A DNA stretch of 52,429 bases from Planctomycetaceae bacterium. GTDB taxonomy: Bacteria > Planctomycetota > Planctomycetia > Planctomycetales > Planctomycetaceae. Location: contig JANSXP010000024.1 in the NCBI GenBank assembly GCA_024742875.1, positions 35,001 to 87,429 of the forward strand. The letters are read 5' to 3'. Both the position numbers and the translations under genes were made by a program. The notes beneath the pieces are model-generated. The model was given only the letters and a program-made list of their open reading frames with translations, was not told where the DNA came from and did no database searches. Positions within the stretch are counted from its first letter, which is position 1. Every line of letters begins with the position of its first letter. Positions 10,477 through 15,578 of the stretch are shown here, one piece after another.

Positions 10477-11403
10477 TCAGTTCGCCGGCCGATGGCTTTC
10501 CGTGATGGTCTTCAGCAGCTGCAGCCACCGAATGTCTTCAGCGCCCAGTGACGCGGCCGGCCACGTGGAGCGATCAGCCAGCGTGTTTTCATAGGCATTG
10601 GTAATGGCGGTGGCCGTGAGCCGAAATTCTTCTGTGCTGCCGCTGTCAATCGCCGTTTCCACCATCGGGTCATAGCTCAGGGCGTCGGTCCGCAGGGCCC
10701 GATCGAGCTGAACCAGCAAAGGGTCGGTGACCTGCGAAGCCGTCCGTCCGTGAAACTCTTTGAGCACCCGTTTTTCGGCCGCTTTGATCTGGCCGTTCAG
10801 GCTGCGTTCATCCAGCGTTTCGCCGGCGGTCTTCAAACCGTATTTGGCCAGCAGCAGTCCGACGGACGGAATCATGGCCTTGGCTGCCAGGATGCCTCCG
10901 GCGACAGGATTGGCCAGCGCGACCAGTCCCCCAATCAGCAGCGCGCCGTTGAATGCCTTGCTGTCCAGTTCATCGATGCGATCCGCCAGGTCCGCCAGAC
11001 GGCTGGCTGTGGGCGAATCGGACGCTGCGGCGCGGGCCGTGCTGGCCGCCTCGTCACACAGCAGCCGCTCAATCATCTGTGAAGAATGGCCGCTGGGCAG
11101 GTGAAAGATGCGTTTTTTGGGCAGATCGTTGATCGGCGGGACGCCATCCGGCAGGCAGCGCATCGAGTACAGCAGGTAGCCGGACTCGGCCTGTCGGAAG
11201 GGAATCAGGAAATAGTGCTTTTCGTCAGCCTGCGATGAGGAGACCTCGTTGGATCCCAGCAGCCAGGTCAGCCCCAGCGTCTGCCGCGCGTAACCCAGCC
11301 CCTGTCCAAACGATCCGGCTGCCGTATCGACCAGGTCGGCAGCTCCCTGCCACGCCTGGGACGCTTTGGTTTTGGCGGAATTGAGCAGTGACTGCAGATC
11401 CAT
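10477..11403 (-). CDS. Protein of unknown function with one hydrophobic segment
   Basis: This 308-residue protein is not recognised. It starts with an amphipathic, Ala-rich region (residues 1-40). A mixed domain follows (60-110, with HYFLIPFRQAESGYLLYSM), then a probable helical stretch RLADLADRIDELDSKAF. A hydrophobic segment at about 153-190 (NGALLIGGLVALANPVAGG and following) could insert in the membrane. A charged helical C-terminus contains LNGQIKAAEKRVLKEFHGR. The frame is open 54 codons further upstream, but the ATG at 11403 has AGGA nine bases before it and the upstream residues look non-coding. It is divergent from the DHODH-like membrane gene (214-base gap) and convergent with the sulfatase. 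Confidence 0.7.
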   Translation of the reverse strand: MDLQSLLNSAKTKASQAWQGAADLVDTAAGSFGQGLGYARQTLGLTWLLGSNEVSSSQADEKHYFLIPFRQAESGYLLYSMRCLPDGVPPINDLPKKRIFHLPSGHSSQMIERLLCDEAASTARAAASDSPTASRLADLADRIDELDSKAFNGALLIGGLVALANPVAGGILAAKAMIPSVGLLLAKYGLKTAGETLDERSLNGQIKAAEKRVLKEFHGRTASQVTDPLLVQLDRALRTDALSYDPMVETAIDSGSTEEFRLTATAITNAYENTLADRSTWPAASLGAEDIRWLQLLKTITESHRPAN

Positions 11404-11617
11404 CAGGTCGTTTCCTGTTGCGTAAAGACGGGCCAGACAAACAACGTCGCCGTCGGGGCCCATGATCAGAATTTTTGCAGCAGATGACAACAGATCGCCG
11501 GAATCCTGCCGACCGACTGGCACGGACGAGCGAATGCGCCCGCGCCCACGACAGCCTCCTGCCAAATCGTTAAGCCGCCGCGCTGGTCACGGTTCGCCTC
11601 GGGGGTAGACTGCGGGC

Positions 11618-13645
11618 ATGCCTGACTGGACTTATCAAACCATTTTTCGTGCGCCGCTGCGGCAATTGCCGTACGCCACCAGTTCGGCGCTGGTGTTCGG
11701 GATGCTGGGGAGGTTGGGACGCTTTGTCGCCGGGCGCTTTGTGATTCGCATGATGGGCCACGCCCAGGCGCCAGCGGATGTGCGGCTGGTCAAGGGCGAC
11801 TGGGACTTGAAATCACCGTGTGCTCTGGGCAGCGGCGTGGATCAGTCGGCTCAGGCGATATCTGCCCTGTCATTGTTCGGCATCGGCCTGCAGGAAGTGG
11901 GGCCTTTTGATCTGCGGGAGTCATCAGGTTGGAATGATCCGCCGCAGGTGACGGCTGAGGAGCGTGCCCGTGAAAGGCGCGGCACGCAGTGGACGCCCGA
12001 TGGCGTGTGCATCTCTCGCTGTCAGGCGGTCGTTTCGTCTGACGATCTGATTCGCCAGCTGCAGCGACAGCATTTTCGTAACGACGTCCCCGTGCTGGCC
12101 CATCTATTGCTGGATGAGTCCACAACGGCGGCCGCCGTCCGGACGCTGGCCAAACAACTGCAGGGGCTGGTGACGGGAGTTGTGCTCACGGTCACCTCGA
12201 CTGACAGCACCGCTGGCGGTGCTCAGCAGAGCAGTGCTGAGTCGAACGGTGCTGAGCCGAGCGGTGCTCAGCAGGATGTCGATTTCCGCAACGTCGTTGC
12301 TGTGGGGCACTCGCTGGTTGAATACGGATTTCGAGTGCTGCTGGCTGTAGACGCTGCGCGACTGCCGCCCGAATACGTCTTTGCTGATTCGCTCTTTGCG
12401 GGGTGGCTGCTGAATTTTGACGACGTGGGTCAGGCGGTGGAGAGTCTGTCTTCGGTGGTGCGGCGGATGTCGGTGAACGCCGACCAGGAGCTGATCATCG
12501 TGCGTGCAGACATTTGCGAGCCGCACGATGGCCTGCGGCTGCGACAGGCGGGGGCCGATGTGGTCCTGCTGGATGAAGGTCTGCCGATCGCCGGCCCTGG
12601 GCTGCCCAAGCGGATCAATGCCGTCGAGCTGGCCGCGCAGCGAGCCGCCCTCACGGCAGCCGATGCAACGGGGGGCTCGCAGATTGCCGCGCCGCGGCAG
12701 TCGTGGCTGTGGGGCCTGCTGCTGGGTATTGCGCTGACAGTTGGCGGAATCATGGCGCTGGCCATTGGCTCCACTCGTGTCGTACTGCCATATGACGAAG
12801 AGTTCCTGGGGATGCTGCGTGAGGAGATTTGCGCCATCAACCCTCAGTTGCTGCCATTCATGTCCCATGATCGGGTGACGCTGGCCGGCACGATGCTGGC
12901 GCTGGGACCTTTGTACTGTCTGCTGGCCTGGTTCGCAGATCGCACGGGACAGCACTGGGCGAAGGTGGCATGGGTCGCGAGCGCGTTCATTGGATTCTTC
13001 AGCTTCTTTTCGTTTCTGGGTTTCGGCTACTTTGACCCCTTCCATGCGTTCATCAGCGTGGTGTTGTTTCAGCTGACGCTGTTTGGCCTGCGTTCTGATC
13101 AGCAGCCTTATCGCCTCGTCGAGTTTGATCTGCACAATTCCGCCACGTGGCGTCGCGCGCTGTGGGGACAGCTGCTGATGGTGATTCATGGAGCCGCGAT
13201 TCTGATCGCCGGCGTTGTGATCAGCGGATTTGGCATGACGACCGTGTTTGTGTCGCAGGATCTGGAATTCATGAACACCACGCGTGATGCGCTGCTGTCT
13301 GCCAATCCGCGACTCGTGCCGCTGGTCGCCCATGACCGGGCAAGCTTTGGCGGCATGCTGCTGGCCACCGGACTCACGGTCCTGCTGACGGCCCTGTGGG
13401 GCTGGCAGCGCGGCCGCCGCTGGCTGTGGTGGTCGCTGGCACTCACCGGAACCACGGCTTACGGCTGTGCGCTGGCAATTCACTGGAGCGTAGGCTACAC
13501 GTCCCTTGTGCACCTGCTGCCCGCCTACGGTGGACTGGCCGCACTGTGGCTGGCGTTACTACTGTCGCGTGCGTGGATGTTTGAAGATGCTGCCCTGATT
13601 GGTGCTGCCTCCGGTGGTCATCGCTCAATGCTGCAAATTGACTGA
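11618..13645 (+). CDS. DHODH-like pseudoenzyme fused to polytopic membrane domain
   Basis: Residues 1-340 of this 675-residue protein follow the class 2 dihydroorotate dehydrogenase (PyrD) layout: an amphipathic N-terminus (YQTIFRAPLRQLPY), then SPCALGSGVDQSAQAI, GIGLQEVGPF, and near the end IAGPGLPKRINAVE. Key functional segments are altered. The NISSPNT-type loop is replaced by VTSTDS plus a Gly/Ala/Gln/Ser pentapeptide repeat (200-219), the KIAPD-type lysine is absent (VDAARLPPE), and the Gly-rich phosphate loop reads VRADICEP. Dehydrogenase activity is therefore doubtful. From about residue 362 there are six or more membrane helices containing a duplicated module, residues ~392-430 and ~547-585, each centred on NP-x-L-x-P-x-x-x-HDR. 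The next gene starts 37 bases downstream on the same strand. True function is unknown. Confidence 0.75.
   Translation: MPDWTYQTIFRAPLRQLPYATSSALVFGMLGRLGRFVAGRFVIRMMGHAQAPADVRLVKGDWDLKSPCALGSGVDQSAQAISALSLFGIGLQEVGPFDLRESSGWNDPPQVTAEERARERRGTQWTPDGVCISRCQAVVSSDDLIRQLQRQHFRNDVPVLAHLLLDESTTAAAVRTLAKQLQGLVTGVVLTVTSTDSTAGGAQQSSAESNGAEPSGAQQDVDFRNVVAVGHSLVEYGFRVLLAVDAARLPPEYVFADSLFAGWLLNFDDVGQAVESLSSVVRRMSVNADQELIIVRADICEPHDGLRLRQAGADVVLLDEGLPIAGPGLPKRINAVELAAQRAALTAADATGGSQIAAPRQSWLWGLLLGIALTVGGIMALAIGSTRVVLPYDEEFLGMLREEICAINPQLLPFMSHDRVTLAGTMLALGPLYCLLAWFADRTGQHWAKVAWVASAFIGFFSFFSFLGFGYFDPFHAFISVVLFQLTLFGLRSDQQPYRLVEFDLHNSATWRRALWGQLLMVIHGAAILIAGVVISGFGMTTVFVSQDLEFMNTTRDALLSANPRLVPLVAHDRASFGGMLLATGLTVLLTALWGWQRGRRWLWWSLALTGTTAYGCALAIHWSVGYTSLVHLLPAYGGLAALWLALLLSRAWMFEDAALIGAASGGHRSMLQID
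12215..12274 (+). repeat. In-frame 15-bp tandem repeat, four copies
   Basis: Four degenerate copies of AGCGGTGCTGAGCCG-like units occupy 12215-12229, 12230-12244, 12245-12259 and 12260-12274. In frame they encode GGAQQ, SSAES, NGAEP and SGAQQ. The repeat sits in the loop that in real DHODH follows the substrate-binding NISSPNT-type strand. Confidence 0.85.
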
Positions 13646-13682
13646 TGGGCGATCAGGCCCAACCGCATCTGCAAAAAACGTC

Positions 13683-14813
13683 ATGGCCAGAGAACAACCA
13701 ACGCCGGAATCTGCCCGCATTCATCAGGTGACGCAGGAACGCCACGGCTGGTGGCTGCTGTTGCTGCTGAGCGTAATCGTTATCCCGGTGGAGTTGCTCA
13801 GGCTGTCGCTGGCAATCACGGCAGACAGGTCGTGGTTTCGCTGGGTCCTTGGCATTGCCTTTCCTCTGCTGATCGTGCGGCAGGTGATCGCTTTGTGGCT
13901 GGGAGAATTTGGTGGCCTGCGCACCCTGGCGTGGCTGTTGCTGCTGCGGGCCGGCCAGTATCTGACGAGCCTCGTCGCGATGTTGCGTCTGCCGCTGGTC
14001 ATGGACGAAATCCCGCTGATCGCGGGGCTGCTGCGGTCAGTGATGCAGTTGTCAGCTGCCGGTCTGGTGGTCTTTGGTCTGTTATCACTGATGTGTTTTG
14101 CGTCCAGCAGCTTGAAGGCCTTCGTGCTGCTGCGATTCCGAACGAACGGGCTTTACCGCTGGGTGCCAGACCGACTGCGATCGCTACTCGGCGAGCCATC
14201 TATTAATGAGCGCATCTTCTCCGAGTACCGGCAACTGGGGGCCCAGGGGCCATATACCCAGTTTACGCCCGCGCTGATCGATGCGCTCGAAGAGGGAGAA
14301 CTGGAGGAGGCGATCGTGGACTATGCGGTCGCCGCGGAGAACGCAGCCGGTGAACGAGATCCACGGGACGTTTTTCGTGAGTTGCCACCTGGATTCGCCA
14401 CGGTCTACACCCTCTGGGAACTCCAGGCTCAGGTCGATAATGGTGGTTTTTTTCAGTTCTTCGTGAACAGGGGGCTGCCCTTCGCTCTGCTGACGCTGGA
14501 AAGCTGCCAGCAGGTGGGCCGCGAGGATATGAGATTGCTTCTGGCTCGGGCCATCGATCGAGCACTGGAGCACGAAGACTCGGTGGATACCGCTGCGGCC
14601 GCTCTGCAGGATGTCACGCAGCTGACAACCGGAGGCTGGGCAGACGCCTATCTGAATGGGGAAAAGGAGATCTCACTGGACGATTTGTCGAGTGAGTTCT
14701 ACGAGCTCGATCCGATCGATCTGGATCAATTTATCCGCCTCAATATGTCCCTGTTTCAATCCACCTCGGCACGGACTGCCGCAGACGAGCACCCCGGTAC
14801 CGAATCTGTCTAG
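13683..14813 (+). CDS. Membrane protein with C-terminal DUF4375/DMP19-like domain
   Basis: The first ~150 of 376 residues hold several hydrophobic segments: WWLLLLLSVIVIPVELL, WVLGIAFPLLIVRQVIALWL, LAWLLLLRAG, and a long one around SAAGLVVFGLLSLMCF. After a linker, residues ~240-265 carry VYTLWELQAQVDNGGFFQFF, the hallmark of DUF4375. That family includes DMP19, a Neisseria protein that mimics DNA and antagonises a repressor. The C-terminus is acidic (EKEISLDDLSSEFYELDPIDLDQ in two parts), in keeping with a DNA mimic, but that role is inference. The upstream part of the frame overlaps the preceding gene; the ATG at 13683 gives a 37-base gap. Its TAG stop shares the CTAG at 14810-14813 with the convergent miaE stop. 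Confidence 0.72.
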   Translation: MAREQPTPESARIHQVTQERHGWWLLLLLSVIVIPVELLRLSLAITADRSWFRWVLGIAFPLLIVRQVIALWLGEFGGLRTLAWLLLLRAGQYLTSLVAMLRLPLVMDEIPLIAGLLRSVMQLSAAGLVVFGLLSLMCFASSSLKAFVLLRFRTNGLYRWVPDRLRSLLGEPSINERIFSEYRQLGAQGPYTQFTPALIDALEEGELEEAIVDYAVAAENAAGERDPRDVFRELPPGFATVYTLWELQAQVDNGGFFQFFVNRGLPFALLTLESCQQVGREDMRLLLARAIDRALEHEDSVDTAAAALQDVTQLTTGGWADAYLNGEKEISLDDLSSEFYELDPIDLDQFIRLNMSLFQSTSARTAADEHPGTESV

Positions 14814-15385
14814 CTGTGGACACGCGGCTGTTCGTAGCCGGCGGCGATGATCTCGGCTTCGGCTGTCGCCAATTCGTCCAGACGGGCGCCCACTTCTTCC
14901 TGGCTGCCGTAGTCCATCGCCAGGCGGACATACGTAGCGTGGTGGCGGGCTTCTGATTCGTACAGGCTGCCGTAAAACTCCGACAGCTCACGGTCATCCA
15001 GGTGATCGCGGAGCAGCACAAATCGCTCGCAGCTGCGGGCTTCAATCAGCGCGGCCACCAGCAGATGGTCCATGGCTTTGTGGGGTTCCTGGCGGCGGCA
15101 CAGGGCCTTGAGCTGGCGGCCATAGGTGCCCGGCTTGAGCTTGATGAAACGAATGCCGCGTTCTTTGAGCAGTTTGAGCACCATGTGAAAGTGCTCCAGC
15201 TCTTCGGTGACGATTTCTGTCATCGTGGCGGTGAGGGCCTCGTTCTCCACGTATTCGAACATCAGGTTCATGGCGGTGGAGGCCGCCTTCTGTTCGCAAT
15301 GCGCATGGTCGATCAAAATGGTGTTCAGGTTTTCTTCCACCTGCCGGAGCCAGCGATCGGGAGATGTCGAGTGAAGATGGAGCAT
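14810..15385 (-). CDS. miaE: tRNA-(ms2io6A)-hydroxylase MiaE
   Basis: MiaE is a non-haem di-iron monooxygenase that uses O2 to hydroxylate the isopentenyl side chain of ms2i6A at tRNA position 37. The 191-residue protein shows both halves of the ferritin-like di-iron site: HCEQKAASTAMNLMFEY with VTEELEHFHMVLKLL, then LIEARSCERFVLL with ESEARHHATYVRLA. These match the family closely. The frame is open 44 codons upstream, but the ATG at 15385 has GGAA about seven bases before it and gives the normal length. The pathway partner miaA lies about 21 kb away at 36329; miaB was not seen. The stop overlaps that of the convergent DUF4375 gene in a shared CTAG. Confidence 0.92.
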   Translation of the reverse strand: MLHLHSTSPDRWLRQVEENLNTILIDHAHCEQKAASTAMNLMFEYVENEALTATMTEIVTEELEHFHMVLKLLKERGIRFIKLKPGTYGRQLKALCRRQEPHKAMDHLLVAALIEARSCERFVLLRDHLDDRELSEFYGSLYESEARHHATYVRLAMDYGSQEEVGARLDELATAEAEIIAAGYEQPRVHS

Positions 15386-15578
15386 GTGAGATTCCGACAG
15401 TGTGCGTAGGTGCGGAGCCCACATTCTTGCAGTTTTGGGGCAGACGTTCCACGGCGTCTGCCCGCGACCCGTGTGATAAAGCCAGGCTGGTGTTGCAGAT
15501 GTGTGCGACCCGGGCAAACTGCTAAACTGAGGGACGCCAGCGACGGCTGGTCAGCAGGCTGGCCGTTTTGACAGGCGC

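Follow-up and report, generated by a model that had tools for sequence, protein, structure and literature searches.

Class 2 (quinone) dihydroorotate dehydrogenase (DHODH), PyrD (NCBIfam PRK05286 / TIGR01036), is the closest described relative of the protein reported here. The two share the N-terminal helical region, the barrel fold and the GPxL end motif, but our protein lacks the catalytic loop motif, has most of the FMN and orotate contacts as well as His19 and Tyr318 replaced, and carries eight additional predicted membrane helices. For the class 2 enzymes, we take NxSSP to be the catalytic loop motif that holds Ser175, Lys66, Asn139 and Lys217 (with others) to be FMN and orotate contacts, Gly268, Gly297 and Ser/Thr319 to be the FMN-phosphate residues, and His19 and Tyr318 to be quinone-side residues. 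The catalytic residue of the E. coli class 2 enzyme is given as Ser175 in a published study (PMC6611227). Pseudoenzymes are a known kind of protein, and in trypanosomatid deoxyhypusine synthase a dead paralogue is reported to activate its enzyme (PMC3663545). Here too an apparently dead copy stands beside an active one, but in the window genome the active PyrD is of another class, and we saw no sign that the dead barrel contacts it. Searches of open-licence papers found no description of such a fusion or of a DHODH pseudoenzyme, and the fusion family and its membrane domain appear to be undescribed.

The open reading frame at 11618..13645 (+) of the window (the whole 52,429-nucleotide stretch of DNA that was analysed), from its ATG start up to and including the stop codon, is a real gene. 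It encodes a 675-residue protein, and the PDW of its start region is kept among relatives. Residues 1-48 (11618..11761, +) form N-terminal helices that correspond to the part of class 2 DHODHs associated with the membrane, and their PDWxYxT...GH ranks among the best conserved stretches of the barrel half. The degenerate beta/alpha barrel (residues 55-334; 11780..12619, +) ends in IAGPGLPKRIN, and contains a low-confidence insert rich in S, G, A and Q (residues 194-229; 12197..12304, +). A linker (residues 335-361; 12620..12700, +), at or near which the frame breaks in several relatives, leads to membrane repeat 1 (residues 362-493, TM1-4; 12701..13096, +) and membrane repeat 2 (residues 509-652, TM5-8; 13142..13573, +), which can be aligned to repeat 1.

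The preliminary description had read the first half as a class 2 PyrD fold, and this reading was borne out, also by the comparison of a predicted structure with DHODH that it had proposed. Taken singly, the window protein has a weak and patchy likeness to class 2 PyrD: it matched NCBIfam NF003652 at 1e-8 over residues 6-107 only (34.7 bits, cut-off 267), stayed below every curated family cut-off, and had no Pfam match at E ≤ 10. For the family, the likeness is firm. A profile of nine sequences (the window protein and eight relatives) matched solved class 2 DHODHs at 1.8e-17, and every row but that of the window protein matched PF01180 (8 of 9 at E ≤ 1, best 3.5e-16). Besides DHO_dh, the Pfam scan of nine fusions gave only weak matches in single members. 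An AlphaFold2 model of the window protein, built from the nine-row alignment (mean pLDDT 68.7, pTM 0.58), alternates strands and helices in its first half, and we read the modelled strands 68-70, 91-98, 159-164, 187-191, 231-237, 262-266, 292-297 and 315-318 as the eight strands of the barrel. A Foldseek search of the PDB with this model gave 154 matches at E ≤ 0.001, and all 50 listed were DHODH (best 3.1e-8; TM-score by target length 0.50-0.70 among the 50). A beta/alpha barrel of the DHODH kind is thus predicted in the window protein, at the model's mean pLDDT of 68.7.

The active site was compared in an alignment of the barrels of 39 distinct full-length fusions, 19 genuine class 2 PyrDs and E. 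coli PyrD. The fusions comprised the divergent L042, 12 from planctomycetes and 26 from Bacillota. These 26, of at least 55 found, were two initial finds, the best-scoring loci of a family survey and hand-picked regions; the truncated L008 and the split copies were left out of the 39. In alignment-free motif counts, the NxS[SC]P pattern of the catalytic loop was found in 0/39 fusions, the window copy included, and in 19/19 genuine class 2 enzymes. A K-x-x-[PA]-[DN] type motif occurred in 0/39 fusions versus 18/19 genuine enzymes, and a GGLSG type motif in 0/39 versus 17/19. Among the eight patterns counted, one was present in 1/39 fusions and another in 2/39, and [GA]GG[IV] did not discriminate (10/39 fusions, 2/19 genuine).

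The mid-barrel aligns poorly and columns about 106-247 are soft; read with this limit, the individual contacts were replaced almost throughout the fusions: Lys66 (1/39 versus 19/19 genuine; Q in the window copy), Asn139 (0/39 versus 19/19; H), Lys217 (0/39 versus 19/19; A), Asn172 (0/39 versus 19/19), Asn111 (0/39 versus 18/19) and Asn246 (2/39 versus 18/19). Position 139 is Arg in 36/39 fusions, and Thr86 is changed to Pro in 39/39. A Ser occupies column 175 in 11/39 fusions, the window copy included, and we read these matches as chance because the surrounding motif is absent. The IAGPGLPKRI motif pointed out in the preliminary description is present at the end of the barrel, and the FMN-contacting lysine and substrate loop that it had reported as replaced are indeed lost in the window copy. 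Its claim that the phosphate loop is replaced holds for the window copy, which has Asn, Asp and Glu at positions 268, 297 and 319, but does not hold for the family, as Gly268, Gly297 and Ser/Thr319 are all kept in 26/39 fusions (19/19 genuine enzymes). The protein family is conserved and has a homologous fold from which the catalytic residues have been lost. Since the contacts are lost family-wide and the phosphate residues are gone from the window copy, the alignment indicates that the chemistry is lost across the family and that the window copy went further. His19 was found in 0/39 fusions (Arg in 35; S in the window copy) and Tyr318 in 1/39 (D in the window copy); with both changed, the barrel is unlikely to bind quinone in the known manner. 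As a DHODH, the barrel is very probably dead.

A class 2 DHODH that is still active and has an additional membrane anchor would agree with the class 2 fold and N-terminus, and with the RefSeq name of one copy from Cytobacillus. Several other fusions also exceed the Pfam DHO_dh cut-off (27 bits), mostly through the last third of the barrel, and on these scores parts of the barrel are well kept, which counts against the dead-enzyme reading. We nevertheless regard retained DHODH activity as extremely improbable, in view of the missing catalytic loop motif and of a second, strong PyrD in every other fusion-bearing genome searched: a separate PF01180 protein was found at E ≤ 4.0e-70 in 16/16 such entries, representing 15 distinct genomes, as the matches of G001 and G463 are identical and were counted as one. 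The genome of the window itself holds two further PF01180 proteins. One of these, on contig C62, is a class 1 PyrD, scoring 401.8 bits against an NCBIfam cut-off of 269, so that a genuine pyrD, which the preliminary description had named as support for a pseudoenzyme, is present elsewhere in the genome. The other (L002, contig C25) is DHODH-like and lies under every NCBIfam cut-off listed.

The barrel might instead have remained enzymatic, or bind a flavin or nucleotide, having taken on a new substrate and handing electrons or product to the membrane half. The newly conserved Arg139 and Pro86, together with the phosphate residues retained in most fusions, would also fit a new catalytic use, as would the scores above the DHO_dh cut-off, and some members weakly match phosphate-binding barrels such as TrpC, PdxS and GGGP synthase (best 0.0013). 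We consider such a new use unlikely: the window copy retains none of the three phosphate residues, nearly all fusions lack the ring, ribityl and substrate contacts that were counted, and the barrel is cut short in one relative and absent from others.

The C-terminal half is polytopic, as first proposed. The model of the membrane half (pLDDT 84.2, pTM 0.83) has eight long helices, with which the hydrophobic stretches agree. Repeats 1 and 2 are homologous (hhalign probability 99.6% over 131 columns; BLASTP 3e-15 within the window protein), and this homology identifies the membrane domain as the product of a tandem duplication, each half of which carries a His-Asp-Arg triplet, at residues 417-419 (12866..12874, +) and 572-574 (13331..13339, +). 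Both triplets, Asp393 and Asp548 are identical in 48/48 C domains. Asp473, His476, His622, Tyr627 and His632 are present in 47/48, the last three being absent solely from the truncated L027. With loop boundaries drawn by hand, the net charge is positive for loops B, D and F and negative for A, C, E and G; by the positive-inside rule, the invariant residues, both triplets among them, are therefore likely to face outside, and the barrel is predicted to lie inside, in the cytoplasm.

No Pfam family was matched in the six barrel-less members scanned, searches of PDB sequence profiles with the membrane domain gave only matches that we judged to be chance, and its model had no Foldseek match at E ≤ 0.001. 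The best Foldseek match, to chain O of PDB 8xqw (E 6.5e-3, TM-score 0.52, rmsd 12.7, probability 1.00), was the sole one with a probability above 0.25 among the 50 listed of 246. This structure is the Chlamydomonas Ycf2-FtsHi motor complex; the fold likeness comes without a sequence match and serves as a lead only, and literature searches on this motor did not name the chain O subunit.

By sequence comparison, the family is most strongly conserved in the membrane domain. This domain is also found in proteins that have no barrel, and it is quite probably the core of the protein. The preliminary description had seen the protein as a pseudoenzyme, and the DHODH fold, the loss of orotate and flavin contacts, the fusion to a polytopic membrane domain and the separate PyrD uphold this idea; the reuse that it suggested for the barrel, as a sensor, scaffold or lipid/quinone-binding domain, stays a conjecture. 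It had also placed the interest in the barrel, whereas the conservation points to the membrane domain.

Selection was estimated in eight close pairs of relatives, among which the window lineage is not represented, its nearest relatives being 53% identical. The dN/dS values, which are rough because most pairs have a dS close to 1 or higher, were 0.125-0.234 for the barrel, 0.142-0.408 for the barrel middle and 0.046-0.231 for the membrane half. Genuine PyrD gave 0.189 and 0.285 in two of three pairs, and no value in the third. Identity was higher in the membrane half in 8/8 pairs; L019/L020 is the pair in which the membrane half has the higher dN/dS (0.231, versus 0.130 for the barrel). These values argue that the relatives keep both halves; maintenance by selection was thus found in the eight pairs of relatives, often at high dS. 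If the gene were decaying, with the barrel half as a functionless passenger, one would expect losses such as those seen in the window barrel, where residues common to most relatives are gone and a low-complexity insert is present. The breaks at or close to the linker in some relatives, one of which has had the greater part of its membrane half deleted, would fit as well. Such decay is improbable, however, given that barrel dN/dS is well below 1 in 8/8 pairs of relatives, like the two genuine PyrD pairs, and that barrel columns are identical in 39/39 fusions across two phyla.

A search for the same fusion elsewhere, suggested in the preliminary description, found it to recur in Planctomycetota, Paenibacillaceae, Cytobacillus and Mycobacterium branderi. 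Among 98 relatives, the window's own genome included, 18 matched. Of these, 10 have both halves, which in G034 lie in two frames, and the other 8 have just the membrane half (G003 with the first repeat only, G043 cut by a contig end). In a sample of 392 genomes from the phylum, the membrane domain was detected in 7 at E ≤ 1e-5. The fusion was present in 52/295 sampled genomes of Paenibacillaceae, the family of Cohnella lupini, counted as one match from profile position 1 to at least 635, with five that contain one stop included. Outside this count, but in the same family, a single frame spans both halves in G730 and G530, G520 matches in part through a frame of 618 aa, and the fusion is split or broken in G593, G689, G624 and G733. 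Two of 398 genomes of Cohnella lupini's phylum matched, one being C. lupini itself, and plasmid records added Cytobacillus spongiae (590 aa) and Mycobacterium branderi (505 aa, hypothetical). Both of these copies retain the two triplets, His476, His622 and His632. The window comes from an 8.18 Mb draft assembly of 168 contigs, in which two genes could have been joined artificially; this has next to no probability and is refuted by the recurrence of the fusion in many independent genomes, including that of the strain Cohnella lupini CECT 8236.

Several single loci deserve mention. The name "dihydroorotate dehydrogenase", which RefSeq gives to the Cytobacillus spongiae copy (L168, 6001-7773), looks like a misannotation. 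The Mycobacterium branderi gene (L167, 5515-7032) lies on a linear plasmid between a DUF732 gene and an IS110 transposase gene. L126, L127, L128 and L016/L030 are broken at or near the linker, and in L128 the membrane half is mostly missing. For L126 and L127, programmed frameshifting at the linker was considered, and dropped for lack of evidence. In L142 (5989-9423), the fusion frame stays open for about 511 codons further upstream, with no Pfam match, and this extension is probably a chance open frame.

The barrel-less planctomycete proteins L021-L027 have the same duplicated four-helix domain with both His-Asp-Arg motifs and no barrel, and L028 has the first repeat only. Another barrel-less membrane protein (L043, genome G199) has a stop codon between the two repeats. 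In a tree of the membrane domain, the planctomycete fusions (12), the Bacillota fusions (28 rows, two of them split copies) and the barrel-less proteins (7) each fell on one side of a branch, with supports of 96/95, 96/87 and 94/91, and L042 adjoined the last of these groups. The barrel tree placed 42 fusion rows on one side of a branch (100/100) and 20 genuine enzymes on one side of another (99/97), with L042 between them. L042 sits on long branches, and neither tree has a known root. A single fusion followed by barrel loss would account for both trees and is the simpler history; two independent fusions, of L042 and of the rest, are also compatible with these sequences. The motif at the end of the barrel was found in 38/41 rows, at a median position of 320.5. 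Its position is 332 for the window protein, 272 for the C. spongiae copy and 175 for that of M. branderi, whose barrel remnant retains PDWTY, EIGPV and AGPG. Tentatively, and at somewhat less than an even chance, an undescribed bacterial membrane family with two outward Asp/His-Asp-Arg/His sites arisen by duplication would have recruited a flavoenzyme as a cytosolic control domain, which is now seen at successive steps of its dismantling (barrel end near 320, 272 and 175, and no barrel).

The explanation that we prefer, and to which we give about an even chance as a whole, is that a class 2 DHODH gene became fused to an eight-helix membrane domain, and that the enzyme part then lost its chemistry. 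The barrel would lie in the cytoplasm on the inner leaflet, with both membrane sites predicted to face outside. The membrane domain would be the working part; through its paired Asp/His/Arg sites it might act as an enzyme on, or as a carrier of, a lipid, an isoprenoid or a small anion. The dead barrel would serve as a cytosolic regulatory or anchoring domain, and for such a role in place of a catalytic one the scales are evenly balanced. In most relatives, the barrel may still sense a phosphorylated ligand; since the phosphate residues are gone from the window copy, its barrel would be mainly structural.

A dead-enzyme family found at several stages of barrel loss offers natural variants with which to ask what the dead domain still serves, and it points to a membrane family that has invariant residues and no Pfam match. 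Automatic annotation can miscall such proteins as dihydroorotate dehydrogenase.

Gene neighbourhoods were examined in 42 stretches (41 loci and the window), of which L119/L007 and L146/L003 are the same places, leaving 40 distinct stretches. No neighbour was shared beyond local synteny, and none hinted at a function; the widest neighbour clusters covered 6/42 stretches, and one of them adjoins the gene in six Bacillota loci. The picking of reading frames in these neighbourhoods was crude, and missed the family gene itself in 4/42 stretches (L128, L149, L151, L155). In the window, the upstream gene (10480-11508, -) had no Pfam match at E ≤ 0.01 over the 343 residues scanned. Downstream, 34 bases past the stop of the fusion gene if the chosen ATG is right, a DMP19-like protein is encoded at 13680-14810 (+; Pfam 8.9e-17), which did not recur as a conserved neighbour in the neighbourhoods of the relatives. 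It is followed by a MiaE-type tRNA hydroxylase gene at 14813-15409 (-; Pfam 7.4e-64).
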